In this document: positions 6,402 through 63,141 of the stretch, one piece after another
Layout of the letters: every line of letters begins with the position of its first letter
Numbering within the stretch: position 1 is the stretch's first letter
NCBI RefSeq assembly: GCF_001426905.1
Contig: NZ_LMFQ01000025.1
Location: 1-64,000, forward strand
Direction: 5' to 3'
DNA length: 64,000 nucleotides
From: Caulobacter sp. Root1455
GTDB lineage: Bacteria; Pseudomonadota; Alphaproteobacteria; Caulobacterales; Caulobacteraceae
Translations under genes and position numbers: made by a program
Notes under the pieces: generated by a model
Seen by the model: only the letters and a program-made list of their open reading frames with translations
What the model was told of the DNA's origin: nothing
Databases searched by the model: none

Positions 6402-7424
6402 ATGTCCGATGTCCGCGCCCTTGCGCCGGTCTGGCGACAGGCCGAAACCTATGAGCCTCTGCTGGGCGCCGATGCCTCGGTCTGGGCCTGGGAGTTCGCG
6501 CGGCGCGGGCGTGGTCGCGACGCGGGCCTGGACGGCGCGGACCCGGGCGAGATCGCGCCCGAGCTTTGTTTCGCGGGGCCCGGCCCCGCCGGAGACCCGC
6601 TGCCCGCCGTGCTCTGGCGCTGGCAGGCGGACGGGTCGGTGCCCGTCCTGAGGGCCCAGCCGGCGACGCCTGGCGACGCCGCCGCGCTTGACCTGGCCCG
6701 GCTGGACCTGCCGTGCCTCGTCGTGCGAACCGCCGACGGCGAGCAGCACGTTCAGATCAGCCAGGGCCTTGCCCGCCTGCGGTTGGCGCTGGTGGGGGGC
6801 GACATTCTCGCCGGTCCCGCGATCCTTCACTTCCATTTGCCGGACGCGGGAAGGGGGGGCGCGGCCCTAGCGGCGGTGGCCAAGCTGATCGCCCTGCGCG
6901 ACACCGGCCGGCTGCCCCCGCGACCGCGCGCCCTTTCGAAGGCCGGGCGCTGGCTGGAGGTCCTGCGCGCCCATGACGCGCGCCAGGCCGGCGCCAGTCA
7001 GCGCGACATCGCCCTGGCCCTGTTTGGCGAGGAGCGGGTGCGCCAGGACTGGAGCGGGCCTTCCGACTACATGCGCATGCGCGTCCAGCGTCTGGTGCGG
7101 GCGGCCGAGGAAGCTGTCGGCGGCGGCTATCGGCGAGTGTTCGGGCTCAGGGCCGCCGAGACCGGGCGCGCGCCGGTCGTCGACATCTGGCGTTCGCCCG
7201 CCTGGCGCGGCGGGTTTTCGTCGCTGGTCCTGGCGGTCGCGATTTTCCTGGGGACATCTTTCGGACCGACCCAAACGCGGCGCGAGTCGTGCCGATTTTC
7301 AGGAGACCCGTGCCTGAAAACGGTCGAGCGGTCCCGGATCGTGGCTCTGGCGGGGTTCACACGCCACAATTCTCGAGCCCAACTCGCCCCAGACGACGAC
7401 GCCGATTCCGGTCATGCGTCCTGA
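6402..7424 (+). CDS. FseA-like DUF6499-DUF2285 transfer activator
   Basis: A 340-residue putative transcriptional activator of ICE excision and transfer. Residues ~17-36 (YEPLLGADASVWAWEFARR) match the DUF6499 signature. Residues ~183-255 (WLEVLRAHDARQAGASQRDI through YMRMRVQRLVRAAEEAVGGG) form a C-terminal DUF2285 domain. In ICEMlSymR7A the equivalent protein FseA is made by +1 ribosomal frameshifting across two genes. Here both domains lie in one uninterrupted frame. About 80 residues follow DUF2285, including a hydrophobic stretch (SSLVLAVAIFLGTSF) not typical of the family. The gene diverges from the QseM-like gene and precedes a second DUF6499 gene. Confidence 0.75.
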   Translation: MSDVRALAPVWRQAETYEPLLGADASVWAWEFARRGRGRDAGLDGADPGEIAPELCFAGPGPAGDPLPAVLWRWQADGSVPVLRAQPATPGDAAALDLARLDLPCLVVRTADGEQHVQISQGLARLRLALVGGDILAGPAILHFHLPDAGRGGAALAAVAKLIALRDTGRLPPRPRALSKAGRWLEVLRAHDARQAGASQRDIALALFGEERVRQDWSGPSDYMRMRVQRLVRAAEEAVGGGYRRVFGLRAAETGRAPVVDIWRSPAWRGGFSSLVLAVAIFLGTSFGPTQTRRESCRFSGDPCLKTVERSRIVALAGFTRHNSRAQLAPDDDADSGHAS

Positions 7425-7440
7425 AGGGCTCAATAGGGGC

Positions 7441-7854
7441 ATGGCCAAGTCCCGCCTCGCGCCCCGCGGTCCCGTTCGCGCCGCCTCGCCCCGCGCCCAG
7501 CCGCGGCCGGATCCGACCGACCCCGACCGCGCCCGCATGGCCTGGGAGTTCCTGCGCCGAAATCCCGACTATCGGGCCGACTACCGCAGCTGGCGAGCCG
7601 GGGCGGCGATCGGCGTGGCCGAGCGGTGGGGCCTGCGGGCGCCGCTGGATCCGGATCTGCGCGATATCGACGCCGGCGCGATCTGGCGCGCCGACGGGGC
7701 GCCTTGCGCGCACCCGCCTGGCGCGGCGCGGCCGCCCGAGCCGCGGGCTATGGATCGTCGTGACGCAGCCGTGGCAGGTTCTCCGCCAGCCAGCGCTCGG
7801 CGCCTTGGTCCATCTTGTCCATGTGGCCTTCGAGACTGTCGTATGAACGCTTGA
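7441..7854 (+). CDS. DUF6499 protein (ICE-type transcriptional regulator domain)
   Basis: About 137 residues from ATG 7441, or 146 from ATG 7414, which overlaps the preceding stop. Residues ~32-80 carry the DUF6499 pattern (MAWEFLRRNPDYRADYRSWR, AERWGLRAPLDPDLRDI). Such short proteins normally sit next to DUF2285 genes in alphaproteobacterial ICEs and resemble the N-terminal part of FseA. The last ~35 residues overlap the convergent Xre gene by 107 bp and look like low-information tail. It may be the first half of a second, split FseA-like protein or a stand-alone regulator. Confidence 0.65.
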   Translation: MAKSRLAPRGPVRAASPRAQPRPDPTDPDRARMAWEFLRRNPDYRADYRSWRAGAAIGVAERWGLRAPLDPDLRDIDAGAIWRADGAPCAHPPGAARPPEPRAMDRRDAAVAGSPPASARRLGPSCPCGLRDCRMNA

Positions 7855-8242
7855 AGGCCTCGATGAAGAACTGCGGCTGGATGTTGGTCATCCGGTCGCC
7901 GACCTTCTGCTCGAACTTGTGGAACGAGGCGAGCTTGATCGAGGCGGCCTGGTTTTCGACACAGCGCAGGGCGTGATCCAGCGAGCCCAGCATCAGCGCC
8001 TCGATGATGCCGACCGGATCGCTGCCGGTGGCGTCGCCGAACCGGAAGATCCGGGCGATGTCCAGGGCGCCGGAGCCGGACTCGAAGTTGTAGTAGGTGC
8101 GCAGGGGCAGGCCCATGGCGTCGGCCACCTGGCGCGCCGACAGGTGTCGCAGGTCGCGAATGTGCTTCAGGATTTGGGACAGGAGCTGACCCTGGCGCCT
8201 CAGCTCCTCGGATGCGCGTTTGACCAAAGTATTACCCGGCAC
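7748..8242 (-). CDS. Xre-family HTH transcriptional regulator
   Basis: 164 residues. An N-terminal Xre-type HTH (LSARQVADAMGLPLRTYYNFESG, residues ~34-56) is followed by a helical ~100-residue region of unknown family. The second half (ALRCVENQAASIKLASFHKF and on) may be for dimerisation. The start is GTG 8242 with no clear ribosome binding site. A near-perfect 12-bp palindrome overlaps this start, suggesting autoregulation or a near-leaderless transcript. It borders the ICE control module on one side and the lasso cluster on the other, and its target is unknown. Confidence 0.75.
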   Translation of the reverse strand: MPGNTLVKRASEELRRQGQLLSQILKHIRDLRHLSARQVADAMGLPLRTYYNFESGSGALDIARIFRFGDATGSDPVGIIEALMLGSLDHALRCVENQAASIKLASFHKFEQKVGDRMTNIQPQFFIEAFKRSYDSLEGHMDKMDQGAERWLAENLPRLRHDDP

Positions 8243-8251
8243 TTGCTAGTG
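8240..8251. promoter_or_regulatory. Near-perfect palindrome at the Xre start codon
   Basis: CACTTGCTAGTG has five of six base pairs symmetric about its centre. It overlaps the GTG start of the reverse-strand Xre gene. Position and symmetry suggest an autoregulatory operator. Confidence 0.4.
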
Positions 8252-8467
8252 TCTATGAGGCGGCAAAGCGACGAACAGGTCAAAGCGCAGCCTGACGTGT
8301 CTTTGGAAAACTATTCTCGCGATACGGTTTCAAGCACGCCGACCCAGGGCCCGGGGCGAGGCGCGCGCCATTTTCCACGATGGTTTTACCGACTTATGGC
8401 GCGGGCCATGCCACGTAACGATTTGCCGCGCCGTTGAATCGGCGCTCACCCGGAAAAATACCCCCAA

Positions 8468-9214
8468 ATGTTCTCCGGCGACGGAGAAAAAGCGCTCCGC
8501 GGACGGCGGCCTTTTCCAGGGTCGGCGACAGTGTCGCCTCGACCTTTCGGGACCCACGCCTTGCCTCCAAGACGCGACGCCTTCGCCCTGGCGCTGAACG
8601 CCCTGAGACATCGGCTTCGCCAAGGCGTCGACGCGCCCGGCGACGCCCTGCCGATCCAGACGATCGCCGACGACCTGCGTCTGTCGACGACGCCCGTGCG
8701 CGAGGCGCTGTCTCGCCTGGCCGGCGAGAGACTGGTGGACAAGCGCGGCCCAACCTATACGCGCCCAAGGCCCGACGGGCCGACCCTGGCGGCGCTCTAC
8801 GACCTGCGCCTGGTCTATCTGACGGCCGCCCTGGGGCGGCGGATCGAGCGGCGGGACGGCGTTCGCCGCGCGCCCCTGGAGCTTCTGGCGGTGGCGCGGG
8901 CCCAGGCGGTCGGGGCGGGGGCCGCCGCCATGGTCGAGGCGCTGTTCCTGGACCTGATGCGCGGGGGCGACGACGGCGTCCTGTTCCAGGCCTATCAGCC
9001 GCTCGCCGATCGACTGGCGCCGTTCGCCGCGCTCGAGGACGTGGTCCTACAAGACGTCGGCCAGGACGCCTCGGCGCTGGTCGCGGCGGTCCAGGCGGGG
9101 CGGACGGCCGAGCTGAGACGGGCGCTGAGGCGCCATCACCGTGTCCGGATGACCCAGGCCGCCCAGATCGCCCGCCTGGCCGACGGCGAAAGATATCGAA
9201 CGGATATGATTTGA
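8468..9214 (+). CDS. GntR-family regulator of the lasso peptide cluster
   Basis: 248 residues. The winged HTH is visible at residues ~55-95 (LPIQTIADDLRLSTTPVREA, LSRLAGERLVDKRG), the usual GntR recognition-helix pattern. It is followed by a helical FCD-like effector region rich in Ala, Leu and Arg, with FHARL-type metal ligands not evident. Codon 1 is uncertain: an in-frame GTG at 8531 would remove an N-terminus of low-information sequence. It stands 71 bp before the first lasso precursor on the same strand. GntR genes are regular members of caulobacterial lasso clusters, so control of precursor expression is likely. Confidence 0.8.
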   Translation: MFSGDGEKALRGRRPFPGSATVSPRPFGTHALPPRRDAFALALNALRHRLRQGVDAPGDALPIQTIADDLRLSTTPVREALSRLAGERLVDKRGPTYTRPRPDGPTLAALYDLRLVYLTAALGRRIERRDGVRRAPLELLAVARAQAVGAGAAAMVEALFLDLMRGGDDGVLFQAYQPLADRLAPFAALEDVVLQDVGQDASALVAAVQAGRTAELRRALRRHHRVRMTQAAQIARLADGERYRTDMI

Positions 9215-9285
9215 ATATCGACCCCCCGGGGCGCGCCCTTTGAGGGCCGCGACAAGCGGCTTTCCGCAAACCCAAGGAGGTCCTG

Positions 9286-9405
9286 ATGACCACCCCTGCC
9301 ACCCTCACGCTGATCCGCCTCGGCTCGGCCAAGTCGCTGACCCTGGCCAACTTCCCGCTCGGCGAGCCCGAGCCGGTGGAGTTCACCGACAAGTACGGCA
9401 TCTGA
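9286..9405 (+). CDS. Lasso peptide precursor 1
   Basis: 39 residues with a strong AAGGAGG ribosome binding site 6 bases before ATG 9286. The leader contains LIRLGSAKSLTL, the RLG-AK-LT pattern of Caulobacter lasso leaders, with Thr at the penultimate leader position. Cleavage after residue 20 leaves a 19-residue core, ANFPLGEPEPVEFTDKYGI. The N-terminal Ala could form an isopeptide with Glu9 (9-residue ring, 10-residue tail), as in caulonodin VI, which also starts with Ala and has Glu9. Glu7 is a less likely alternative. Precursor 2 shares leader pattern, core length, A-N start, Gly6 and Glu9, which supports the prediction. B and C enzymes follow. The gene is too short for routine gene finders. 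Confidence 0.88.
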   Translation: MTTPATLTLIRLGSAKSLTLANFPLGEPEPVEFTDKYGI

Positions 9406-9479
9406 AGCCGGACCGCCGGTCGTCGGCGCCGCCGCGCGCCGGCGACCTCCCGTCGATCCCTTCGGTCAAGGAGAAGACC

Positions 9480-9599
9480 ATGACCCACCTCGTCCAAGGA
9501 CGCCTGCTGCGGCTGGGCGCCGCCAAGCGCCTGACCCAGGCCAATCTGCATCAAGGCATGCAGGAGGGCGAAGACCTCACCGACCGCTGGGGCGTGTGA
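9480..9599 (+). CDS. Lasso peptide precursor 2
   Basis: 39 residues from ATG 9480, preceded by CAAGGAGAAG. The leader includes LLRLGAAKRLTQ with Thr at position -2. The predicted core, ANLHQGMQEGEDLTDRWGV, is 19 residues. The ring would close Ala1 to Glu9, and the tail ends in TDRWGV against TDKYGI in precursor 1. The pair are clearly paralogues that kept the ring-forming positions (Ala1, Asn2, Gly6, Glu9) and the tail motif T-D-(K/R)-aromatic-G-aliphatic while the remaining core changed. His4 and several acidic residues make it chemically distinct. It ends 62 bases before the B protein start. Confidence 0.88.
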   Translation: MTHLVQGRLLRLGAAKRLTQANLHQGMQEGEDLTDRWGV

Positions 9600-9661
9600 G
9601 CGGCAGGCCGGACGCGCCCAAAGGGCCGTCCGGCCGCGACTTCGTCGGAAGGAGACTCCCC

Positions 9662-10324
9662 ATGGGATATTGGCTGGCGCCCGGCGTCCACGCGGTTCAT
9701 GTCGAGTCCGACCTGGTGTTCCTGGACATCGCCTCGGACGCCTATCTCTGCCTGGTCGGGGGCGCGGCGCACCTGCATGTCGGCGCGGACGGGGCGGTGA
9801 GCGCCGATCCGGCGTCATCGGCCCAGGATCTGGTGGAGGCCGGGCTTGTCGGCCTCCAACCTCGCGCGGGCTCGGGGCCCAGTCCGCCGCCGGTCCGCCA
9901 GGCGTTGGAGATCACGTCCAAGCCTTGTTCGCCGCTCGCGCTCATCGGCCTGCTGCCCGGCATGGCCGGCGCGGCCGCGATCAATCTGCGCGCCGCCCGC
10001 GCCGTCCAGACCCTGACCTTCGCGCAGGTCCTGGCCCTGGCCGGTCCGCTCAAGGCCGCGGCCTTCGCCGCGCCGTCGCCAGCCCTGCTGGCCGCTTGCC
10101 GCCGATTCGACCGCCTGGCGCCCTGGCTCCCGCGGTCTGGTCGCTGCCTGATGCGCAGCCTGGAGCAGCGCCTTTACCTGGCGCGGCGCGGTTTCGCGGT
10201 CGCCTGGGTGTTCGGCGTGCGCACCTGGCCGTTCGAGGCCCATTGCTGGCTGCAGGCCGGCGAGGTGGTGCTGGACGACAGCCTGGGGCACGCGCGCGGC
10301 TTCACGCCGATCCTGGTGGTGTGA
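9662..10324 (+). CDS. Lasso peptide B protein (leader recognition plus leader protease)
   Basis: 220 residues. It removes the leader from the precursors. The N-terminal ~85 residues form a PqqD-like RiPP recognition element (GYWLAPGVHAVHVESDLVFL, then DIASDAYLCL). The C-terminal part is the transglutaminase-like cysteine protease. The likely catalytic triad is Cys ~161 in SGRCLMRS, His ~193 in EAHCW and Asp ~204 in VLDDSLG. The start is set at ATG 9662 because GGAAGGAG precedes it, although the frame is open further upstream. Fusion of both functions in one protein is normal for proteobacterial lasso systems. The stop is two bases from the C protein start. Confidence 0.9.
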   Translation: MGYWLAPGVHAVHVESDLVFLDIASDAYLCLVGGAAHLHVGADGAVSADPASSAQDLVEAGLVGLQPRAGSGPSPPPVRQALEITSKPCSPLALIGLLPGMAGAAAINLRAARAVQTLTFAQVLALAGPLKAAAFAAPSPALLAACRRFDRLAPWLPRSGRCLMRSLEQRLYLARRGFAVAWVFGVRTWPFEAHCWLQAGEVVLDDSLGHARGFTPILVV

Positions 10325-10325
10325 G

Positions 10326-12095
10326 GTGCGCGACTACCTGGTCATCGAGATCGAAGCCGGAGCCGACCCCGCGCCCTGGCGCGAGGCCGAAGCCCTGGTC
10401 CTGGCCAGCGGCCAATGGTCCAAGGTCGCCGAACGCCGGCGGTTTTCGATCTTCCTGGAGGCGGCCCGGCCGCCGGCCTATCGCCATCTGGCCGGCGTCG
10501 GCGGCGGGCTGATCGGCGAGGTGTTCGACGCCCAGGCGGCCCGGCGGGGGGAGGGGCGCGATTTTTGCCTGGTGGGGCTGGGCGCGGAACCGCGCGAGGT
10601 CGCCGCCGCCCTGGCCGACCGCGCCTTTGGCCGCTACGTCGCCATCCTCAATGACGATCGCGGGCCCGCCCGGGTCCTGCGCGATCCGCTGGGCGTGATG
10701 GAGGCGATCGGCTGGCGGCGCGGCCCCTTGCGGTTCATCGGCTCGCGGCTGCCGGACCTGCGGGCGCTGTGGCCGCACGAGCTGTCGATCGATTGGCCGG
10801 CCCTGGCCGCCATCCTGCGCCAGAAGAACCTGGCCAGCGTCATCTGTCCCCTCAAGGGAGTGGTCAGCTATCCGCCCGGCGTATTGGCTGGACCGGACGG
10901 CGAGGGACCGCGGCTGTGGTCGCCGGCCGTCTTCGCCCGGCGGCCCTGGCGCGACGCCGACCCGCGCGCCCTGCGCGACGTGGTCGATGGGGCGGTCGCC
11001 GCCTGGGCCCAGGGCCTGGGCGGCGTCTTCTGCGAGATTTCCGGCGGACTGGACTCGGCGATCGTCGCCACCAGCCTGACGCACGCGCGCGCGCCGCTGC
11101 TCTACGGTCTCAACCACAGCTTTCCGCGCGAGGAATCCGACGAGCGCGCCTATGCGCGGGCCGTGGCCGATCACATCGGCGCGCCGCTGCGGATCGTCGA
11201 GCGCGGCCCGCTGCGCCTGGAGCCGGCCAAGCTGGTCGGCGCGGCGGGCGGTCCCCGGCCCAACTATGTCGGCGGCGATCCCGACCACGACGCCGACCTG
11301 TCCGCCAGGCTCGCGGAGCCGGGCGTGGAGGCGATGTTCACCGGGCGCGGCGGCGACGGGGTGTTCTTCCAATCCGGCCATCCGTCCCTGGCCCGCGACG
11401 TGCTGGCGGGCGCCTGCGGCGACGGTCGGATCGGCGGCCTGGCGCGCCTGGCCCGGCGCAACGGCGCGACCGTCTGGGACATCCTGCGAAGGGGCCTGGC
11501 GCCGCAGGACCTGACCGCGGGCCTCGGCGTCCAGATGTTCATGAGTGCGGCGGCCGCGGCCGGGCCCGTCGGCCGCCATCCCTGGCTGGGCGAGGCTCGC
11601 GACCTGGCCCCGGCCAAGCAGCTGCAGATCCTGGCCCTGGTCAACGGCCTCAGCGCCTTTGGGGAAAGCCGGCGCCACCGGGCCGGCGACGTGATCGACC
11701 CGCTGATGAGCCAGCCGGTCGTGGAGTTTTGCCTGTCGCTGGCGGCGGGGCGCCTGGCGATCGGCGCCAATGACCGCCCGTTCGCCCGCGCCGCCTTCGC
11801 CGAGCGGCTGCCCGCCGCCGTGCTCGAGCGTCGCGGCAAGGGGAACCTGACGATCTTCGTGGCCCAGAGCTTGTGCCAGAGCCTGGACGCTCTGCGGCCC
11901 TATCTGCTGGAGGGCCGCCTGGCCGCCGCGGGACTGGTGGACCGCGAGCGGCTCGACGCGGCCCTGTGCGCCGACCAGCTGGTGTGGACCAACATCACCT
12001 CCGAGCTTTTCGTGCTGCTGGCCCTGGAGGCCTGGGCGCGGCGCTGGACCGAGCGGCTCACTGCCTCGGCGGCCGCCCCGAGCCCGCCGGCATGA
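10326..12095 (+). CDS. Lasso peptide C protein, asparagine-synthetase-like macrolactam cyclase
   Basis: 589 residues, homologous to asparagine synthetase B. It adenylates the ring acid side chain and lets the new N-terminus attack it. The N-terminal half is a glutaminase-like domain lacking the catalytic Cys2. The ATP-pyrophosphatase loop EISGGLDSAIVAT lies near residue 236-248, followed by MFTGRGGDGVFF, the second nucleotide-site motif. The start is GTG 10326, immediately after the B stop (TGA then G then GTG), so translation is probably coupled. The 3' end overlaps the convergent isopeptidase gene by 38 bp. Confidence 0.92.
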   Translation: MRDYLVIEIEAGADPAPWREAEALVLASGQWSKVAERRRFSIFLEAARPPAYRHLAGVGGGLIGEVFDAQAARRGEGRDFCLVGLGAEPREVAAALADRAFGRYVAILNDDRGPARVLRDPLGVMEAIGWRRGPLRFIGSRLPDLRALWPHELSIDWPALAAILRQKNLASVICPLKGVVSYPPGVLAGPDGEGPRLWSPAVFARRPWRDADPRALRDVVDGAVAAWAQGLGGVFCEISGGLDSAIVATSLTHARAPLLYGLNHSFPREESDERAYARAVADHIGAPLRIVERGPLRLEPAKLVGAAGGPRPNYVGGDPDHDADLSARLAEPGVEAMFTGRGGDGVFFQSGHPSLARDVLAGACGDGRIGGLARLARRNGATVWDILRRGLAPQDLTAGLGVQMFMSAAAAAGPVGRHPWLGEARDLAPAKQLQILALVNGLSAFGESRRHRAGDVIDPLMSQPVVEFCLSLAAGRLAIGANDRPFARAAFAERLPAAVLERRGKGNLTIFVAQSLCQSLDALRPYLLEGRLAAAGLVDRERLDAALCADQLVWTNITSELFVLLALEAWARRWTERLTASAAAPSPPA

Positions 12096-14556
12096 CCGGC
12101 TCGGGAGCCGCCAGGGCCGCGTCGAGAAAGGCCAGCAGGCGCTGGTAGTAATCGCGGACATTGCCGGGCGCGTAGAACACATGGCCCTCGCCGCGATAGA
12201 TCACCAGGACCGCGTCCTTGTTCTGGCGATAGAGCGCGCCGAACAGGGCCTGGGGTTGGGCGACGTCCTTGTCGTTGTCGCCATGGAACATCAGCACCGG
12301 GGCGGTGATCTTGTCGGCGAAGACGATCGGACTGTTGCGCAGGTAGCGCTGCGGGTCGCTCCAGGGCGGGGCGCCCATCCGCGCCTGGCCGGTCTCCAGC
12401 CAGCCGCTCGAGGCGAACACCGTCATGCCCGCCTCCGGGACGGCGTAGGAGAACGGCGCCAGGCGGGCGTAGGCGCTGATCAGGTTGGAGGTCGCCGCCG
12501 TCGCCACCACGGCCTTGAAGCGCGGGCTCTGGGTCGCCGCCCCGAGCACCGCGTAGCCGCCATAGCTGTGGCCCCAGATCGCCACGCGCCCGGCGTCGAC
12601 CAGGCCCTGGGCGGCGGCCTGGTCGACCGGCCCGAGCATCTGGTCGGCCAGGCCCTCCATCGGTTCGCGGCCCGCCAGATAGGGCATGGCCGGCACGAGG
12701 GCGGCGTAGCCGTGGGCCGCCAGGATCTGGGCGTTGACCGACATCTGCAAGGCGCCCGGGGCCTGCTGGGCCGGCGGTGCGGCCGGCGCGCTCCCGGGAT
12801 AGGGCAGGACCACCACCGGCGGCGGGCCCCTGGACGATGGCGCGCCGGGCGGCGAGCCGTCAGCTGGGCGCGGCGGCAGATAGAGCCAGCTGGTCAGGTC
12901 CTGGCCGTCCAGGCCCTTGTGGCGGATGGCGATCGGCGCGGCGAACGCCACATCGTCCAGGGCGGCGTTGACCGTGACCAAGGTCTTGGCGGCCATGCCG
13001 TCCTGGGCCAGCAGGACGGTTTCGACGCCGTGGTCGTCCTTGGCGGTCTGGACGGTCCCGGCGGACGTCAGGGCGGTGACGCGCGCGCCCGGCGATGGCG
13101 CGGGCAGGCGCGGCCCGGGCCAGGACAGGGCCGGCGGGGCGGCGGCGGCGTCCAAGGCCAGGGCCTTGAGCGGCGGCACGAAATTCTGCGCCCCGCGAAA
13201 GCCGGGCGGCCGATCGGCCAGCGACTGGACCTGCGCCGCCGCGACGCCCCAGGCGTGAGCCCCGGCGCGCGTGACGCGCCAGACCTGGCCGCCGGCGCTG
13301 AGCGCCCAGACGCCGGGATCGGCGCCGATCGCCCGCGGCTCGCCGGGCAGGGCGGCCGTCAGGTTCGTCGGCCGCCGGCCGTCCAGCCGCCAGTAGTCCG
13401 CGCGGCCGCCGGCCGGGGGGCGGGCGAAGATCACCGGCTGTCCGTCCAGCCAGCCGCCGAGCGGCACGCCCTGCAGGTCGAAGGTGGGGGCGAACACCGG
13501 CTTCAGACCGCCCAGCGCCAGGGGCGCGGCGCCCCGCAGGCTCATGCGCCAATAGGCGCCCTCCGAGAACGGGACGTCGCCCCGGCGGGCGAAGACCAGC
13601 AGCGCGCGCCCGTCGTCGGACCAGCTGAGGAACCGGCCCATCACGTCGCAGTCGGGACAGGGCGTGACCGGCCCTCCGTCGTCGAGCCCGGCCAGCACCA
13701 GGGTCTTGGCGGTGGGCTCGGAGGCGGCGTTGGTCGGCTCGGGCGTCTGGGGCTGGATGTCCTGCCCCTCGACCAGGGCCGCCGCCGTCGCCCCGTCCGG
13801 GGCCAGGCTGAAGTCGCGCACCGCGCCGGGGACCACGACCCGGCTCTGTCCGGTCTTCAGATCGATCAGCATCAGGCCCAGGCTCGCGGCCCTGGCCCGC
13901 AGGTCCCGATAGCGGCCGCTGCCGACGACGCTGGCGCCCAGTTCGCCCCGCGCCGTGGCCGTCCATTGGCCGCTGACCCGCGCCTGGCCCTGCCAGCCGA
14001 AGCCGATCGGGGTGTCGGGGGCGTCCTGGGGCCGCGCGGAGACCAGCAGCTGGTCGTCGGTCCGCCACAGCAGGCTTGGACCCCAGACCGGCTGGCGCGG
14101 CGCGATCCCCAGCCAGCGCGCCTGGCCGGTGGCCAGCTCGACCACCCCCAGCTCGAAGGCGTGACCGGTGAGCCGGCCGACGGCCAGCCTGCGGCCGCCG
14201 GGCGAGACGCCCAGGGCGACGTAGCCGGGCCCCCCCGGCAGATCGAGCCTTCGCTCCGCCCCGCCGGCCTTGACGTCGAACACCTGGATGCGGCCCAGGC
14301 CCAGCCGGGCGCTCCAGTCCAGATCGTAGGCCGGGGCGCTGTCCCAGCGCGCGTAGCGCTGGACGACCAGCCAGCGCCCGCTCGGATCGAGCCTGGCCGA
14401 CTCCAGCTGCTCCAGGGCCAGCAGGCGCTCGACCGTGAACGGCGCCGCCGTTGCGACCGGTGCGACCGGTGCGACCGGCCCGGGCGCCGCGCCGGCGGCC
14501 GGGGGGAGAAGGGCGATCAGCGCGCGGCCGACCGCGAGCGCCGACAAGCGTCGCAT
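12058..14556 (-). CDS. Lasso peptide isopeptidase (prolyl-oligopeptidase family)
   Basis: 832 residues with an N-terminal signal peptide (hydrophobic residues ~8-24, AAGAA cleavage region), so it is periplasmic. The N-terminal two thirds form a beta-propeller-like region. The C-terminal alpha/beta-hydrolase carries Ser in GHSYGG (~residue 662), Asp in HGDNDKD (~757) and His in GEGHVF (~789). Astexin isopeptidases (AtxE type) of this family open the lasso isopeptide bond specifically. Here the gene lies back to back with the C gene and 42 bp upstream of the receptor stop on the same strand. The likely role is to linearise imported lasso peptide. A general dipeptidyl peptidase role is less likely in this context. 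Confidence 0.88.
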   Translation of the reverse strand: MRRLSALAVGRALIALLPPAAGAAPGPVAPVAPVATAAPFTVERLLALEQLESARLDPSGRWLVVQRYARWDSAPAYDLDWSARLGLGRIQVFDVKAGGAERRLDLPGGPGYVALGVSPGGRRLAVGRLTGHAFELGVVELATGQARWLGIAPRQPVWGPSLLWRTDDQLLVSARPQDAPDTPIGFGWQGQARVSGQWTATARGELGASVVGSGRYRDLRARAASLGLMLIDLKTGQSRVVVPGAVRDFSLAPDGATAAALVEGQDIQPQTPEPTNAASEPTAKTLVLAGLDDGGPVTPCPDCDVMGRFLSWSDDGRALLVFARRGDVPFSEGAYWRMSLRGAAPLALGGLKPVFAPTFDLQGVPLGGWLDGQPVIFARPPAGGRADYWRLDGRRPTNLTAALPGEPRAIGADPGVWALSAGGQVWRVTRAGAHAWGVAAAQVQSLADRPPGFRGAQNFVPPLKALALDAAAAPPALSWPGPRLPAPSPGARVTALTSAGTVQTAKDDHGVETVLLAQDGMAAKTLVTVNAALDDVAFAAPIAIRHKGLDGQDLTSWLYLPPRPADGSPPGAPSSRGPPPVVVLPYPGSAPAAPPAQQAPGALQMSVNAQILAAHGYAALVPAMPYLAGREPMEGLADQMLGPVDQAAAQGLVDAGRVAIWGHSYGGYAVLGAATQSPRFKAVVATAATSNLISAYARLAPFSYAVPEAGMTVFASSGWLETGQARMGAPPWSDPQRYLRNSPIVFADKITAPVLMFHGDNDKDVAQPQALFGALYRQNKDAVLVIYRGEGHVFYAPGNVRDYYQRLLAFLDAALAAPEPVMPAGSGRPPRQ

Positions 14557-14598
14557 CGTGGGTGTCTCCGGATTTGGGCGGTTAGGGGGAGGGGCGGC

Positions 14599-17500
14599 CT
14601 ACCAGGCCTTGGTCAGCTGCAGGCTGACCATGCGGCCCAACGGGTCGGCGTTGACCGGGTCGTAGCCGATCGCCAGCGGGTTGTCGTGGAACGGCGGGTC
14701 GGCGTCCAAGAGGTTCTGGACGTTCAGCGTCACCGACAGGCCATCGGCGGCCAGCAGCCGGCCTTGCCAGCGGCCCTGCAGGTCGAGCGTGGTCCAGGGA
14801 TGCACCCGCCGGCCGGTCTCGGCGTAGCTGTCGCCGACATGGTTGACCCCGGCGGTCACCGAGGCGGGGCCATGGGTCCAGGTGGCCGAGACGCGGCCGC
14901 GCAGGTCGGCCGGATAGCCGGCCACGCCGGCCAGTTCGGTCTGGACCGAGGTCGGGGTGAGCTTGCGCCTATAGTGCATCATCCACGACAGGGCGCCGGT
15001 GAACGTCAGCGGGTCGCCGGCCAGGGTGGCGGCGTAGGTCAGCTGGGCGTCCAGGCCCTGGACCTCCAGGCTGCCGGTGTTGAGGTTGCGCGCGTCGATG
15101 ATCGCCCCGTAGGTGTCGACCGCGTAGACCCCCGTGCCCGAGGCGTTGGGATCGGCCATCGCCGCCAGGACCTTGGCCCGGTCGGCCGGATTGGTCGCCG
15201 GATGGACGATCGTCACGAACGGCGCGAACTGCGCCGAGGTCAGGGCCTGGGTCAGGACGACCGGAGCGCCGACCCGGTCCTTGAACACGGTGCGATAGGC
15301 CGACAGCTCCACGGTCAGGTCCGGGACGTCTTGCGGCGTGAAGGTCACGCCGGCCGTCCACGACTTGGCGGTCTCGGGCTTCAGGTCGGGATTTCCGCCC
15401 TGATAGACCAGGGTGGGGAACTGGCCGCCGGCATAGGTGATGGCCACCGGCGAGACGGTGTAGGGCAGGTGCAGCTCCGACATGGCCGGGGCCCGGAACG
15501 AGGTTCCGTAGGTGGCCTTGAAGGCCAGGGCCGGGATCGGCGCCCAGATCACCCCGACCTTGGGGTTTTCCGTGCGGCCGACGTCGTCATAGTCCTCGAT
15601 CCGCCCGGCCAGCGACAGCTCCAGGCGCTCGATGAGCCGCACGGCGTTGTCGGGACCGACCAGGGGCGCGTTGAGCTCGGCATAGACGGCCCTGACCTCG
15701 CGGCCGAACCGGCGGGGGACCTTGGCGGTCCGCACCGCCCCGGCCAGGAACCGCGCGCCGCCGGTCCGCAGCTCTTCGCGGCGGACCTGGCCGCCGAGCG
15801 CCAGGCGCAGGGTTCCGCCCGGCAGGCGGGCCAGCGGTCCGTCGAAGCCCAGATTGACCGAGCGGTGCTCGCTGCGGCTCTTGGAGACGTCCCAGCCGGC
15901 CAGCACGAAATCCAGCACCTTGGCCGGGTTGGAGCCCTGGCCGATATAGGGGTTGAAATAGCCGTCGCGCGTGGCGCTGAACGATGTCAGCGGCGAGTCG
16001 GGCGCCAGGCCCGCGGCCTCGTTCAGGTTGCCGCCGTGCAGCAGGCCCGAGCCGTCGCTGCGCCCCAGCTCCTGGGCGTAGGTCGCCGACAGGTCCGCGT
16101 TCCAATCCCTGCCGAGCGGGGTCTTGGCCTCCAGGCTCGCGCCGAGGCTTTCGGAGACGCCCCAGTTGTCGATGCCGCCGCGCTCGTTCTGGAACGAATA
16201 GGTGATGCGCTCGGACGCCTGGCCGGTGGGCGAGACATAGAAGGGGTTGGCGGCGGTCACCACCAGGGTCGTGCCCGGCGCGGAATTGCGCGCGTCGATC
16301 TCGCGATGGGCGAAGCGGAAGTCCCCCGACAACTCCACCCGGCCCACCGACTGGGCGGCCGACAGCACCACGCTGTGGCGGATGGATTCGGGCAGCACGT
16401 CGTAGGCGCCGCGCTGGTTGAAGCGGTTGACCGTGCCGTACACGAAATCGCTCGGCTTCAGCTGCGTCCCGTCCTGGCCCGCTGGAATGGCGTAGGTGGA
16501 GACATAGACCCCGGCGCTGTTGAGCCGAAGGATGTTGCCCGGCGCGCTGAGGGTGATGCTGCGCCGGTCCGCGCCGCCCAGGGCGGTGAGGTCGGCGTTG
16601 CCGGCATAGGGCCGGTCGGCGCCGCGCAGGGCGTCGTTGCGGGCGTACTCATAGGCCGCCAGCACGTGGCCGCGCGACCAGGTCTTGCCCAGGGCCTGGC
16701 TGGCCAGGGAACGGGTGTAGCCGCCTTGCGTCGCCGTCCCGGCCGACAGACGCGTCTCGCCGCCGTCCAGATCGGCGCGCAGGCGGATGTCGACCACCCC
16801 GCCGACCGCGTCCGAGCCATAGAGCGCCGAGGCTCCGTCCAGCAGCACCTCGACCCGGCCCACCGCCGCGAACGGGATCGCCGAAATGTCGGAGAAGTCG
16901 CCGTAGATCCCCGCGCCGGCCATGCGCTTGCCGTTGAACAGCACCAGGGTCGAGTCCGCCCCCAGGCCTCGCAGGTCCACGCCCGTGCCGCGCATCATGT
17001 TGGTGCCGTTCAGGTCCGCCCCGGTGGAGACGCTGTCCTCGCTGGCGGTGCCGCCCGAGGCCTGGGGCAGGGAGGTCAGGGCCTCGGCCACGCTGGCGTA
17101 GCCGCCCCGGTCGATCTCGTCGCGGCCCAGGACCACGACGGGCGAGGCGCTGTCCTTGACGCCCCGGATATGGCTGCCGACCACCACTTCCGACAGCAGG
17201 GTGGCCTCGTCGGTCTTCGAGGCGGGGGCGTTCGGCGCGACCGGGTCGGCGGGCAGGCCCGCCAGCAGGTCGGGCTCGGCCGCGTCGGCGGCGGCGGGCG
17301 GCGGGCCGCCGCGCGGGCGCACCACCAGCAGGCGCGGACCGGCGCGCTGGGCTTCCAGGTCGCTGCCCGCCAGCAGGCGGGCGAGCGCCTCATCGAGGCT
17401 GAACACCCCGTCCAGGGCCGGAACCTGGCGGCCCTCGACCGCCTTGCTGGTGAACACGATCTGCACCCCGGTCTGCTGGCCCAGGGCCAGAAGGGCCGCG

Positions 17501-17649
17501 CCGAGCGGTCCCTTGGGCGTGCGCACCGCCGAGGCGGGCGCGGTCGCGGGCGTCTGCTGCACAGGCGCGGCCAGGCCCGGGCCGGCCAGGGCGGCGCTCA
17601 GGGCCAGCAACGATAGGCCCGCGAGGCCCCGACGAATCGACACAACCAT
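14599..17649 (-). CDS. TonB-dependent outer-membrane receptor with STN signalling domain
   Basis: 1016 residues. After the signal peptide (hydrophobic residues ~8-27) comes a secretin/TonB short N-terminal domain (residues ~45-110; PLGAALLALGQQTGVQIVFT, SLDEALARLLAGSDL). Then come a plug (LLSEVVVGSHIRG, RGTGVDLRGLG, FNGKRMAG) and a large beta-barrel ending in Trp (LQLTKAW). An STN domain signals ligand binding to a FecR-type anti-sigma factor, and FecR and FecI genes lie directly upstream on this strand. The receptor probably imports the lasso peptide, or a ligand bound to it, and reports its presence. It sits 42 bp before the isopeptidase, likely co-transcribed. Confidence 0.92.
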   Translation of the reverse strand: MVVSIRRGLAGLSLLALSAALAGPGLAAPVQQTPATAPASAVRTPKGPLGAALLALGQQTGVQIVFTSKAVEGRQVPALDGVFSLDEALARLLAGSDLEAQRAGPRLLVVRPRGGPPPAAADAAEPDLLAGLPADPVAPNAPASKTDEATLLSEVVVGSHIRGVKDSASPVVVLGRDEIDRGGYASVAEALTSLPQASGGTASEDSVSTGADLNGTNMMRGTGVDLRGLGADSTLVLFNGKRMAGAGIYGDFSDISAIPFAAVGRVEVLLDGASALYGSDAVGGVVDIRLRADLDGGETRLSAGTATQGGYTRSLASQALGKTWSRGHVLAAYEYARNDALRGADRPYAGNADLTALGGADRRSITLSAPGNILRLNSAGVYVSTYAIPAGQDGTQLKPSDFVYGTVNRFNQRGAYDVLPESIRHSVVLSAAQSVGRVELSGDFRFAHREIDARNSAPGTTLVVTAANPFYVSPTGQASERITYSFQNERGGIDNWGVSESLGASLEAKTPLGRDWNADLSATYAQELGRSDGSGLLHGGNLNEAAGLAPDSPLTSFSATRDGYFNPYIGQGSNPAKVLDFVLAGWDVSKSRSEHRSVNLGFDGPLARLPGGTLRLALGGQVRREELRTGGARFLAGAVRTAKVPRRFGREVRAVYAELNAPLVGPDNAVRLIERLELSLAGRIEDYDDVGRTENPKVGVIWAPIPALAFKATYGTSFRAPAMSELHLPYTVSPVAITYAGGQFPTLVYQGGNPDLKPETAKSWTAGVTFTPQDVPDLTVELSAYRTVFKDRVGAPVVLTQALTSAQFAPFVTIVHPATNPADRAKVLAAMADPNASGTGVYAVDTYGAIIDARNLNTGSLEVQGLDAQLTYAATLAGDPLTFTGALSWMMHYRRKLTPTSVQTELAGVAGYPADLRGRVSATWTHGPASVTAGVNHVGDSYAETGRRVHPWTTLDLQGRWQGRLLAADGLSVTLNVQNLLDADPPFHDNPLAIGYDPVNADPLGRMVSLQLTKAW

Positions 17650-17874
17650 GACGGCAATAATCCCCCAAATCGCGCCGGGTTCGTCGTCGTGACGAACGCG
17701 TGACGGGCGCGTCTGGGATGGAGACCCGCCAGGGGGCGGCCGGCCTTACCGCCGCGTGAAATAAATATGACGGTGTTCGCCCCGCGCCCGCTCGGCGCGG
17801 CGCCGTCGCAATCTGAAGATTGGCCGGCCGGTCCGGGCCATGGCCGACGGCGCGACCGGAAAGCCGGTCCGGCC

Positions 17875-18909
17875 CTAGGACCGGGCCTTGGCCGGACCCG
17901 TCGGGGCGAGCAATTCGATCGAGCCGTCGTCGCGCTCGGCGCTGTCCAGGTTCAGCGAGGCGGCCACGCCCCGCGCGAAGGCGCCGGTGTCGCCGGCGTC
18001 GAACACCCCGTTGACCCGCTCGTTGGCCGGCGCGCCGGCCCCCAGCACCACCTTCTGGCGGCTGTAGCGATTGACCTCGTCCACGGCCTCTCGCAACGGC
18101 GCGTCCTGGAAGGTCAGGCGCCCGTTGGTCCAGCCGGTCGCGGCCGCCACGTCGACGGCGACCGGACGGGCGGGGGCCTTGCCCGCGACCTCCAGCCGGG
18201 TTCCGGCGGTCATCATCGTCGGCATCGGCGCATGGGCCCTGGTCACCTGCACCCGGCCCTCGGCCAGGGTCACCCGCACCGCCGCCCCGGTCCTGTAGAC
18301 CTCGAACCGCGTGCCCACCGCCCGCACGGCGGTGTCGCCGGCCGTGACCACGAACGGACGCGCCGCGTCATGGGCCACGGCGAACAGCGCCTGGCCCCTG
18401 TCCAGGGTGATCGCCCGCCGCTCGCGCGTCAGCCGCACGCGCACGGCGCTGTCGGTGTTGAGCTCGATCGACGAGCCGTCGGCCAGCGACACCACCCGGC
18501 GCTCGCCCACCGCTGTGCGGTAGGTCTGGCCGAACGGCTGGCCGATGACGACGTAGCCGGCCAGACAGGCGGCCGCCAGGCTCAGGCCCGCGATCCAGAA
18601 GCCCGGCCGCCGGCCCAGCCGGGATCTCAAGGCCGTGGCCGGGCGCGGGCGATCCAGCGCCGCCTGGGCGAGGGCCCGCAGGCGCGGATCGTCGGCGTGG
18701 GCGCGCACGCCCTGGGCCAGGCGCTCGATCTGGCTGTAGGCGGCGTCGTTGCAGGCGTCCTCGCGCCAGGCGTAGAACGCCGTCACCTCGCGGTGGGCGA
18801 TCCGCTGGCCGCGCATCTTGGCGTACCAGGCGGCGGCTTCCTCGCGCGCCTGGCGACGCCGCGCGGGGGAGGGCTCCGCGGGCCGTGTCACGGTCGGGTT
18901 ATCGCTCAT
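17875..18909 (-). CDS. FecR-family anti-sigma factor / transmembrane signal transducer
   Basis: 344 residues. The N-terminal cytoplasmic DUF4880-like region holds AAAWYAKMRGQ and WREDACNDAAYSQIERL. One membrane segment lies near residues 104-124 (FWIAGLSLAAACLAGYVVIG). The periplasmic FecR domain includes GERRVVSLADGSSIELNTDS and AVGTRFEVYR. A C-terminal STN-contacting segment reads LTFQDAPLREAVDEVNRYS. It should relay the receptor STN signal to FecI. It starts 12 bp after the FecI stop, so the two form an operon. A short GC hairpin (17854-17869) lies just past its stop. Confidence 0.92.
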   Translation of the reverse strand: MSDNPTVTRPAEPSPARRRQAREEAAAWYAKMRGQRIAHREVTAFYAWREDACNDAAYSQIERLAQGVRAHADDPRLRALAQAALDRPRPATALRSRLGRRPGFWIAGLSLAAACLAGYVVIGQPFGQTYRTAVGERRVVSLADGSSIELNTDSAVRVRLTRERRAITLDRGQALFAVAHDAARPFVVTAGDTAVRAVGTRFEVYRTGAAVRVTLAEGRVQVTRAHAPMPTMMTAGTRLEVAGKAPARPVAVDVAAATGWTNGRLTFQDAPLREAVDEVNRYSRQKVVLGAGAPANERVNGVFDAGDTGAFARGVAASLNLDSAERDDGSIELLAPTGPAKARS

Positions 18910-18921
18910 GGCGTGGTCCGC

Positions 18922-19443
18922 CTAGCTCCCGATGTAGTCGGCGCATCGGGCGACAGCCTGTCTCATCCGCTTTTCCACCGCTCCCAGCGAGATCCCGAGC
19001 AGGCTCGCGATCTGCGCATAGGTTTTTCCCTCGACATGGGTCAGGACGAAAACATCGCGCAACTTTGGCGGCAAGGCGAGCATCATCTCGGTGAAAATCA
19101 GCGCCGCGTCCTGGTCGCCGTCGGCGCCGGCCCGATCGAGGGCGTGATCGCGCGGGTCGACGAGCACCGCGCGGGCCGCCTTGCGCCGGCGGTTTGACGC
19201 CAGGTTGAGCGCGATGCGCATCAGCATCGACTTGGGCCGGCGGATCGGGGCCGGCGGCACGTACTGGTGGACCCGAAGATAGGTGTCCTGGGCGATGTCG
19301 GCGGCCTCGGCGTGGCCGTAGCGCTGGGTCAGCACCGCCGTCAGCCAGGCGCGGTGACGCAGATAGGCGTCGGCCAGGGGCGGGGTTCCCGGATCCGGGG
19401 GCGGGGCGTGGGGGGACAGCAATTGGGCGTTGAGCGGGGGCAT
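18922..19443 (-). CDS. FecI-type ECF RNA polymerase sigma factor
   Basis: 173 residues from ATG 19443. Frames from further upstream (to 19518) add only Arg/Pro-rich sequence. Region 2 is seen in YLRHRAWLTAVLTQRYGHAE and ADIAQDTYLRVHQ; region 4 in LPPKLRDVFVLTHVEGKTYAQ and IASLLGISLGAVEKRMRQAV. Genes of this type direct transcription of the partner TonB receptor when FecR is activated through the STN domain. Here that points to lasso-responsive control of the receptor and isopeptidase. The target promoter is expected in 17650-17874, but I could not identify it by eye. Confidence 0.9.
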   Translation of the reverse strand: MPPLNAQLLSPHAPPPDPGTPPLADAYLRHRAWLTAVLTQRYGHAEAADIAQDTYLRVHQYVPPAPIRRPKSMLMRIALNLASNRRRKAARAVLVDPRDHALDRAGADGDQDAALIFTEMMLALPPKLRDVFVLTHVEGKTYAQIASLLGISLGAVEKRMRQAVARCADYIGS

Positions 19444-19532
19444 GGGCCGCGTTCCGAACCAGTGAATGCGGGACGGAATCCGGATCGAGCCGTGCCCGCG
19501 TGAACGTCGCGGACGCACGACGATATTTGGCC

Positions 19533-19552
19533 ACTTTACTCATAGTCTATTC
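19533..19552. promoter_or_regulatory. C-box-like operator/promoter upstream of controller 1
   Basis: ACTTTACTCATAGTCTATTC recurs with one change at 19834-19853. Its core TACTCATAGTC (19537-19547) contains the symmetric ACT-nnn-AGT of restriction-modification controller boxes (consensus GACTnnnAGTC). CATAGT could serve as the -10 element. The element ends 32 bases before the internal ATG of the first controller gene, exactly as in the second copy. Confidence 0.65.
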
Positions 19553-19563
19553 ACTGTCCAGCG

Positions 19564-19794
19564 TTGAACGTGCGCCTTCACGGCATGGATTTTCTGGCCG
19601 TGGTGGGAGCGAACGTGCGCGCCCTGCGGGAAGCTCGCGGGCTTCCGCAGGATGAGCTGGCTCACCTCGCGTCGATCCACCCGAGCTATATGTCCGATGT
19701 TGAGAACGGTAAGAGAAACTTCAGCTTGAAGGTCCTGGAGCGGATTGCGGTTGCGCTGCGCGTTCCAGAGACCGATCTGGTGATCCGCCGATAG
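19564..19794 (+). CDS. C-protein-like Xre regulator 1
   Basis: 69 residues from ATG 19585, or 76 from TTG 19564. Almost the whole protein is one Xre HTH: NVRALREARGLPQDELAHLA, the recognition region SIHPSYMSDVENGKRNFSLK, then VLERIAVALRVPETDL. Size and motif (HP-Y-S-VENGKRN-SL-VLE-IA-AL) match controller (C) proteins of type II restriction-modification systems, which bind C-boxes and regulate themselves. A C-box-like repeat lies just upstream. No methylase or endonuclease gene is adjacent. The second controller follows 74-90 bp downstream and is a paralogue. Confidence 0.8.
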   Translation: MNVRLHGMDFLAVVGANVRALREARGLPQDELAHLASIHPSYMSDVENGKRNFSLKVLERIAVALRVPETDLVIRR

Positions 19795-19833
19795 CGGGGG
19801 AAGTGTTCCTAAGGTTTGTCGAACTTTTTTGCG

Positions 19834-19853
19834 ACTTTACTTATAGTCTATTC
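19834..19853. promoter_or_regulatory. C-box-like operator/promoter upstream of controller 2
   Basis: ACTTTACTTATAGTCTATTC matches the first copy at 19 of 20 bases. Its core TACTTATAGTC (19838-19848) is one base from the GACTnnnAGTC C-box consensus. TATAGT (19842-19847) is a good -10 candidate, so bound regulator would control the promoter directly. Confidence 0.68.
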
Positions 19854-19867
19854 CGAAATGCACCGCG

Positions 19868-20101
19868 ATGGTGCGCCATCGGGGCATGGATCTCCGAGGG
19901 GTTGTTGGCGCAAATATTCAAGCTGCACGGAGTGCTAGCGGCGCCCTGCAGGACGACATCGCGCACGAAGCCGGCATCCACCCCACATACTTGTCTGGCA
20001 TTGAGAACGGTAAGCGCAACATAACGCTCCGTGTGCTTGAGCGCCTTGCGGCGGCGCTCGGCGTGACGGAAGCGGAGCTTGTGCGACGCAAAGATCGGTA
20101 G
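19868..20101 (+). CDS. C-protein-like Xre regulator 2
   Basis: 77 residues from ATG 19868, or 71 from ATG 19886, the position equivalent to ATG 19585 in the paralogue. The Xre HTH spans NIQAARSASGALQDDIAHEA, then GIHPTYLSGIENGKRNITLR and VLERLAAALGVTEAELVRRK. It resembles controller proteins of restriction-modification loci even more closely than copy 1. Both genes have the same operator at the same spacing, so they probably auto- and cross-regulate. It is convergent with the Gabija operon, 270 bp away, and no gene lies downstream on its own strand. Confidence 0.8.
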   Translation: MVRHRGMDLRGVVGANIQAARSASGALQDDIAHEAGIHPTYLSGIENGKRNITLRVLERLAAALGVTEAELVRRKDR

Positions 20102-22219: not shown

Positions 22220-22221
22220 GA

Positions 22222-24480: not shown

Positions 24481-24596
24481 GTTTCCTTCCCCGAGCAGCC
24501 GAAGCCAGCGCCACACGACCAATTGCAGCGCTGAACGTCAAGGTTGCGGAGCTGTTAGCTGATCCTCAGAGATTCGCCATGCTGCTCGGCCAGGGA

Positions 24597-56548: not shown

Positions 56549-56560
56549 GGGGGCGGCGAC

Positions 56561-61760: not shown

Positions 61761-61794
61761 CCCCGCCGCAACGCTTTAGCCAAAGGCCGCTCCC

Positions 61795-63138: not shown

Positions 63139-63141
63139 GTA

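Follow-up and report, generated by a model that had tools for sequence, protein, structure and literature searches.

A lasso peptide gene cluster of Caulobacter sp. Root1455 with product and control genes of different histories

The first 64,000 nucleotides of contig NZ_LMFQ01000025.1 from Caulobacter sp. Root1455, here called the window, carry a cluster of lasso peptide genes at positions 8468-19443. An initial annotation made from the sequence had proposed a complete caulobacterial lasso cluster at this place, and the gene content found with Pfam and NCBIfam models bears this out. The cluster is a hybrid of a product part and a control part that have different histories.

Genes and precursors of the cluster

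On the plus strand, the cluster opens with a GntR-family regulator of the control lineage termed type I below (8468-9214; PF00392, 39.3 bits), a cluster gene that the initial annotation had not named. Two precursor genes follow, A1 (9286-9405) and A2 (9480-9599), and then B (9662-10324), in which an N-terminal part, by its position a putative leader-binding RiPP recognition element, precedes a B2 cysteine protease (NF033537 lasso_biosyn_B2, 67.8 bits against a cut-off of 33; Transglut_core3). The likely start of B is the ATG at 9662, with GGAGA ahead of it. The asparagine-synthetase-like lasso cyclase C (10326-12095, plus strand) scores 84.7 bits with PF00733 (Asn_synthase), over the cut-off, and retains SGGxDSA in an alignment of eight sequences. 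On the minus strand lie a long-type S9 peptidase with a hydrophobic N-terminus, the predicted lasso isopeptidase (12058-14556; PF00326), a TonB-dependent transducer with STN, plug and barrel (14599-17649; PF07660, PF07715, PF00593), a FecR anti-sigma factor (17875-18909; PF04773, 80.7 bits) and a FecI extracytoplasmic function sigma factor (18922-19443; Sigma70_r4_2, 59.7 bits; Sigma70_r2, 28.9 bits). FecI comes from the reading frame 18925-19518, with an ATG at 19443, and has sigma-70 regions 2 and 4; a Pfam scan of the overlapping frame 18899-19543 gave no match. ABC transporter families are absent from the Pfam matches of the cluster genes.

The locus therefore holds B and C beside the precursors, together with GntR, an S9 peptidase, a TonB receptor and a sigma/anti-sigma pair. 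From the Pfam domains, a receptor with an STN domain beside FecR and FecI is predicted to be a cell-surface signalling transducer. Every gene that had been listed (B, C, isopeptidase, TonB receptor, FecR and FecI) was found; the peptidase is left outside the AtxE2 family by a curated model.

Both precursors are exactly as first read, with 39 codons and Thr at -2. A1 is composed of MTTPATLTLIRLGSAKSLTL followed by the core ANFPLGEPEPVEFTDKYGI, and A2 of MTHLVQGRLLRLGAAKRLTQ followed by the core ANLHQGMQEGEDLTDRWGV, and their leaders match each other (...IRLGSAKSLTL and ...LRLGAAKRLTQ). A leader-core pattern, composed in a strict and a loose form after the precursors had been seen, matched only A1 and A2 in the six frames of the 64-kb window; across 40 first-order Markov copies of the window, the strict form had a mean of 0 matches and the loose form a mean of 0.58, with a maximum of 2. 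Each precursor combines Thr at -2 of the leader with an acidic residue (Asp or Glu) at core positions 7-9. In the second core, Glu9 is the sole acid at these positions, while the first has Glu7 besides. The 19-residue cores are supported, and so is Glu9 as their ring acceptor, since Glu9 is retained in the four orthologous cores of the related loci L036 and L037. The L036 cores (AHLPTGEQESSDVSDKYGI and AHLPFGEQESMDVSDCWGV) and the L037 cores (AQIPYGELESGNPFDGYGV and AQMPVGELENGDLTSRWGI) keep Ala1, Gly6 and Glu9, and in each pair one tail is Tyr-Gly and the other Trp-Gly. An Ala1-Glu9 isopeptide ring is predicted for both cores of the window; the lasso forms have calculated masses of 2105.0225 for A1 and 2137.9719 for A2 as [M+H]+, or 1053.0149 and 1069.4896 as [M+2H]2+. 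Among the loci examined, only the window's own genome contains either core, and neither the whole core strings nor their first nine residues were found in the open-access PMC texts searched.

The ring had been called the rarer type, and this description does not suit the lineage. Among 80 distinct cores of window-type (long-type) clusters, 42 begin with Gly, 30 with Ala and 8 with Ser, and the ring acceptor is Glu9 in 45, Glu8 in 24, Asp8 or Asp9 in 4 and ambiguous in 7. Ala1 and Glu9 are both common here, so an Ala1-Glu9 ring is ordinary in this lineage. In AtxE2-type clusters, all 34 distinct cores begin with Gly; a first residue other than Gly is thus found in 38/80 long-type versus 0/34 AtxE2-type cores (Fisher p 4e-8, with related cores that are not independent). 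For lasso peptides overall, the relevant passage of a review puts Ala1 at 16% (PMC7549694). Of the 68 long-type loci, 54 yielded a precursor with the pattern, as did 25 of the 26 AtxE2-type loci, so the set of cores does not cover every locus. Before the core count, eight of the 142 pattern matches were removed; one of them (L185, GGGQYHKAD...) is probably real, with Gly1 and Asp9.

Homologues of C (E 1e-30) occur in 74 of the 199 genomes of the family. We compared 60 C loci with their flanks, then 26 loci with AtxE2-type peptidases and 14 further C loci; the genome collection contributed 80 named loci, many of which represent the same clusters. With the window's proteins as queries and FecI outside the count, B and C were present in all 60 C loci, the receptor in 58, FecR in 57, and GntR and the peptidase in 56 each. 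In 55 loci the full set of B, C, peptidase, receptor and FecR was found, in every case with the order and strands of the window. In all isopeptidase clusters known to date, according to the portion of a review that treats them, GntR likewise precedes the precursor, and the TonB transporter and sigma/anti-sigma genes lie downstream of the peptidase (PMC9266682). Judged by this shared architecture and by the same order in relatives, the cluster is of an already known type, with the gene order of the caulosegnin cluster.

One locus (L046, G182) has cores that, from their letters, we take to be caulosegnins I, II and III. It resembles the window in its arrangement of GntR-A-B-C opposite peptidase-TonB-FecR, its long-type peptidase (39-40% identical), its Glu8/Glu9 rings and its TTTGAATAT box. 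It differs in having Gly1 cores, three precursors and control genes and box of type II, and its C is 40% identical. The clusters that, again from core letters, presumably make astexin-2 and -3 (L193/L194) and benenodin-1 (L183) also have precursors, B and C with a peptidase on the opposite strand, and the review describes this general layout for them too (PMC9266682), but the peptidase is AtxE2-type (710-779 bits to a local AtxE2-type profile), the leaders lack RLG.A[KR].LT, the cores begin with Gly1, and the clusters fall on the other side of the cyclase tree.

A product part and a control part

The closest relatives of the window's genes are found in two sets of loci. Among full-length loci, the closest product genes are those of L036 (G197), L037/L097 (Caulobacter sp. 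UNC279MFTsu5.1) and L038/L098 (602-1), which also have two precursors. Unlike the window, these loci have GntR, FecI, FecR, STN and box of type II; the cores of L038 start with Gly1, and no core is identical. The closest control genes, together with an ATATC triple box, are those of the type I set, L040/L099 (Caulobacter radicis 695), L041/L100 (UNC358MFTsu5.1), L039 and L045. In this set, C is only 40-45% identical to that of the window, and the cores begin with Ser1 or Ala1 and are of other sequence; to us they presumably resemble caulonodins IV-V.

Identities along the cluster follow this division. C is 72% identical to its counterpart in L036, 64% to L037 and 52% to L038, and 43% to L039 and L041. 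GntR is 46-59% identical to the type I set versus 29-32% to L036-L038, FecI 56-62% versus 29-37%, and FecR is closest to the type I set in six of six segments along its length. The receptor changes sides within one protein. Its first 120 residues, comprising signal peptide and STN (17290-17649, minus strand), are assigned to the type I lineage by identities and the approximately unbiased (AU) test: residues 61-120 are 45-65% identical to the type I set versus 33-37% to L036-L038. Over residues 181-300 the pattern is reversed and L036-L038 are closer. Residues 121-160 favour neither set; beyond roughly residue 160, the L036 lineage prevails.

Phylogenies agree with this partition, with AU p values that are post hoc. 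In trees of combined genes from 19 clusters, the control genes (FecI, FecR, STN) place the window with L039, L040, L041 and L045 (support 100), and a forced grouping with L036-L038 carries a penalty of 424.5 log units (AU p 4e-4). With the product genes (B, C, peptidase, barrel), the window falls instead with L036-L038 (support 100), and the alternative grouping costs 850 log units (AU p 3e-68). In single-gene trees of 18 clusters, grouping with L036-L038 is rejected for GntR (p 6e-10), STN (1.7e-6), FecR (6e-91) and FecI (2e-56), and grouping with the type I set is rejected for the barrel (9.6e-6), peptidase (8e-62) and B (1.3e-3). Only a few alignment columns are strictly diagnostic, with 10 of control type and 1 other in GntR, 6 control and 1 product in FecR, 4 control and 1 other in FecI, 1 product in B, 9 product and 1 control in C, 5 product and 1 control in the peptidase, and 22 product, 2 control and 1 other in the receptor beyond residue 125.

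The product part thus consists of B, C, the peptidase and the receptor's plug and barrel, all of the L036 lineage, with the precursors beside them, and the control part of GntR, the precursor box, FecI, FecR and the receptor's STN, all of the type I lineage. Given these gene-by-gene lineages, one joint lies between the precursor box and B, and the other inside the receptor, between STN (residues 62-112) and plug (165-285). In a survey of 19 named loci, the types of GntR, FecR, FecI, STN and box could all be read in 12 of the same group, and none of these 12 combined different types; four of them contain reference sequences of the types. For L106, the STN is nearly tied between types (70 vs 67 bits); L113, a more distant locus, is mixed. 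A short contig of a metagenome-assembled genome, L096, combines a C 73% identical to that of the window with a GntR and a box of type I. The hybrid is therefore not confined to the window's assembly; FecI, FecR and STN were not found on this short contig. No report of STN shuffling was found in the literature searched, in which subscription papers were mostly outside scope.

The exchange could have run in the other direction, with the window keeping ancestral control genes and L036, L037 and L038 replacing theirs, which would put the hybrids on the other side. We regard this as possible, though we incline against it. The inner order of the window, L036, L037 and L096 is unsettled (supports of 36-82 in the C tree), and the type II control genes of L036 and L037 belong to different sublineages from those of L038, both of which are in keeping with such replacements. 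Replacement in L036-L038 would, however, alter only the direction of exchange, and product and control genes of the window would still differ in history.

The precursor box belongs to the control part. This promoter-like element (9192-9219, plus strand) has three ATAT half-sites about 11 bp apart and TTTGAAT (9210-9216), with CGC (9232-9234) 15 nt further on. ATATN{3,4}TTGAATAT has a single match in the 5.08-Mb genome, at 9204-9218, overlapping the GntR stop. A count over the 1.31 Mb of the 68 window-type loci gave 31 instances of TTGAATAT on the precursor strand. Of these, 29 fall within a 1.6-kb stretch ending near the start of B, in 22 loci (L043 and L044 represent one and the same cluster). 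The opposite strand has six occurrences, none in the 1.6-kb stretch before B, and in AtxE2-type loci the word stands upstream of B in 0/26. Two thirds of long-type loci accordingly lack the exact word. A looser arrangement, (T/G/A)TTGAAT then 15 nt then CGC-like letters, is present in 34 of 53 first-precursor upstream regions, where the three letters are C in 27, G in 32 and C in 28 of the 34.

A hairpin, GCCGC-GACAA-GCGGC (9246-9260, plus strand), lies just ahead of the A1 ribosome site. A perfect 5-bp stem between -55 and -10 was found in 43 of 47 upstream regions versus 10.1 expected from mononucleotide shuffles; L041, L045, L055 and L082 had none there, and six of the 53 regions (L062, L063, L069, L075, L220, L221) were left out of the count. 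Many of these hairpins share one place, with stems GCCGC/GCGGC, GTCGC/GCGAC, GCTGC/GCAGC or CCGCC/GGCGG, so that the letters differ in both arms; some hairpins have other stems. Box and hairpin counts alike come from related sequences and are not independent events.

The box exists in subtypes, an ATATC triple box in the window, L039, L040, L041 and L045, and AATATAG-RTTTGAATATA in L036-L038 and the caulosegnin group. Even with up to three mismatches allowed, the type II consensus has no match in the 64-kb window, whose own box belongs to the other subtype and is spaced differently. GntR, as the product of the adjacent gene the simplest candidate, probably acts at the precursor box; no report of a lasso-cluster GntR operator was found in the same literature search. 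FecI was considered as regulator of the box and not adopted, the region upstream of the receptor having another motif. By eye, receptor upstream regions contain a recurring element like CGTCATAATTTTTTCAC, which in the window (17650-17875, minus strand) reads CGTCATATTTATTTCAC, and GTCTC stands further down in several of 18 such regions. This element is possibly the sigma-factor promoter of the receptor gene.

The coupling of parts extends beyond the window. We compared distances among 59 clusters that have all parts, drawn from 69 long-type clusters after five were set aside and those with missing genes left out. Barrel distances correlate with those of the cyclase (0.91) and the peptidase (0.89). 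Given the barrel, STN and FecR correlate at 0.60 (0.63 in the 45 clusters outside the window's group); given FecR and FecI, STN and its own barrel correlate at 0.03 (0.01 in those 45). Given barrel, C and peptidase, partial correlations are 0.56 for STN-FecR, 0.40 for GntR-FecI, 0.29 for GntR-STN and 0.28 for GntR-FecR, each reached in 0 of 500 row permutations. The nearest neighbour of STN is that of FecR in 29 clusters and that of the barrel in 17. Product and control nearest neighbours coincide in 23 of the 59. For GntR, the nearest neighbour agrees with that of the control genes in 32 clusters and with that of the product genes in 20; among the 36 clusters where these two differ, GntR sides with control in 15, with product in 3 and with neither in 18.

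Several points weigh against so simple a division. The lineage groups were picked after the identities were seen, which is why the AU p values are post hoc, and the partial Mantel-type tests are only roughly calibrated. Receptor residues 1-125 contain no strictly diagnostic column; STN is short, and its grouping with type I has support of 82, unstarred. For B, the window and L036-L038 do not form a clade in the best tree, although such a clade is not rejected (p 0.45). The precursors lie at the first joint, and although their cores resemble those of L036 and L037, they are very short and stood outside the trees. The motif upstream of the receptor is not that of the precursor box. Across clusters, GntR correlates no less with C (0.81), barrel (0.79) and peptidase (0.77) than with FecR (0.75), FecI (0.73) and STN (0.67). 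With the control parts taken into account, its partial correlations with product parts are still 0.48-0.55; for FecR and the barrel, the value that remains is 0.49. A clean division into two cassettes was consequently not borne out for GntR and FecR. As GntR follows both parts, our firm claim is limited to the receptor, in which STN goes with the anti-sigma factor and the barrel with the enzymes.

The long-type peptidase and the surroundings of the cluster

The peptidase represents a second type, of about 800 residues, common to the window and the caulosegnin cluster. With NF033523, the model of the AtxE2 family, it scores 55.1 bits, over residues 643-812 only, against a cut-off of 400. Five further long-type peptidases are also far below this cut-off, versus 527-789 bits for five AtxE2-type ones; a class-wide search with this model matched 270 of 385 genomes at E 1e-5, one match exceeding the cut-off, and serves as background only. 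With one exception, peptidase type corresponds to a deep division in the cyclase tree, and on the window's side 67 of 70 clusters have the long type. Separately, L220 and L221 (about 6580-9000) combine AtxE2-type cyclase and precursors with an approximately 800-residue peptidase that matches the long type only weakly (226 and 205 bits), either a swap or a third peptidase type, by its profile scores.

We think it unlikely that this protein is something other than an isopeptidase, such as a periplasmic peptidase that trims already linear peptide or acts on an unrelated substrate. The low AtxE2 score would suit such an enzyme, as would its best solved relatives, which are other S9 peptidases. Further, the solved chain 5jrk, presumably the sphingopyxin isopeptidase, scores 83 and 73 bits with two AtxE2-type queries and is not among the matches listed for three long-type queries at E 0.001. 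However, the long type holds the isopeptidase position in caulosegnin-type clusters too, its own family profile finds AtxE2 at E 6e-21, and its distances track both receptor barrel and cyclase (r 0.89 each). Catalytic residues are also kept: in 39 homologues, Ser664 and His792 are invariant and Asp762 is conserved in at least 90%. An AlphaFold2 model (predicted local distance difference test score, pLDDT, 92) has the S9 fold of beta-propeller and alpha/beta-hydrolase with the catalytic triad. In neither fold comparison was AtxE2 among the 50 rows listed; because the family profile recovers it at the sequence level, this absence does not speak against a relationship. In the portions of the literature examined, we found no biochemically tested protein assignable to the long type.

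The best solved sequence match of the peptidase is chloroplast glutamyl endopeptidase, which raised the question whether Glu rings accompany the long type and Asp rings accompany AtxE2. The core counts reject this as a rule, as 18 of the 34 distinct AtxE2-type cores have Glu7 or Glu8 (one of them Glu7/Glu8), and 4 of the 80 long-type cores have Asp8 or Asp9.

A Gabija defence pair lies beside the lasso cluster (20372-24522, minus strand), with GajA at 22222-24522 (PADLOC, 684 bits) and GajB at 20372-22405 (580 bits). Its guanine-plus-cytosine content is 61% versus 69-78% for the lasso cluster genes. Two tandem small phage-repressor-like helix-turn-helix regulators (19564-20101, plus strand) are oriented divergently to FecI, and ahead of each lies a minus-strand sequence resembling GAATAGACTATRAGTAAAGT. 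On the other side of the cluster, a gene with a RovC-type DNA-binding domain (6402-7424, plus strand) overlaps a Trans_reg_dom (PF20109) gene (7414-7854, plus strand), which in turn overlaps an HTH_3 gene (7748-8242, minus strand). To us, the RovC-type/PF20109 pair is reminiscent of activators of integrative conjugative elements. Conjugation genes for a TraG/VirD4-type coupling protein, a TrbB-like ATPase and TrbL occupy 54515-63951 (plus strand), a region that matches 135 plasmid records by megablast, with best rows of 73-77% over parts; the lasso cluster itself had no PLSDB match by megablast. Together, the conjugation genes and the regulators at 6402-7854 suggest an integrative conjugative element as a possible carrier of the lasso and Gabija genes. 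An RHS-repeat protein of 1000 aa is encoded at 15-3017 (plus strand).

Proposed working and meaning

We are fairly confident that this is a complete isopeptidase-type cluster, predicted to make two 19-residue lassos that its own receptor would sense, and a natural mosaic of product and control. B would cut the leaders after Thr-Leu (A1) and Thr-Gln (A2), and C would join Ala1 to the side chain of Glu9, with Tyr17 or Trp17 of the tail as the likely plug by homology. The peptides would leave the cell by a route outside the genes recognised in the cluster, in which no exporter was recognised. The barrel of the TonB receptor may then recapture the lasso, the S9 peptidase, whose N-terminus is signal-peptide-like, may open its ring in the periplasm, and STN may relay the ligand signal through FecR to FecI. 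Contact between STN and the C-terminus of the anti-sigma factor is established for FoxA/FoxR, as stated in the section consulted of one study (PMC11637429).

The split between STN and barrel fits a lasso that is the ligand of its own receptor, to judge from sequence relationships. The product part would be exchangeable because barrel, peptide and peptidase must fit one another, and the control part because it needs mainly to fit itself and its own promoters. From this we speculate, tentatively, that lasso clusters of this type are two often-exchanged parts meeting inside one receptor, with GntR and the precursor promoter tied less strictly to the control part, and that the lasso is a secreted autoinducing signal, later destroyed by the peptidase. 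This reading is weakened by GntR and FecR, whose variation tracks the product part as well. Lassos might instead act outwards, as antimicrobials or as scavengers of metal or organic cargo, with the receptor sensing the loaded cargo in the manner of siderophores, a prospect we likewise hold with some doubt. A siderophore-like role is proposed in part of a review (PMC9266682), and disruption of a Sphingomonas lasso gene abolished phenanthrene degradation, according to the portion seen of the report (PMC11006600). The co-variation of barrel and cyclase fits a bare or a loaded ligand alike, and sequence decides for neither.

The split receptor, with its barrel following the enzymes and its STN the anti-sigma factor, provides assay-independent evidence tying the ligand to the cluster's own peptide. 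It also offers chimeras made by nature, together with a defined promoter on which a reporter test could be built. What isopeptidase-type lasso peptides do is still called enigmatic in the passage concerned of that review (PMC9266682). If the lasso is indeed an autoinducing signal, this enigmatic role would be signalling among cells that share the same barrel.

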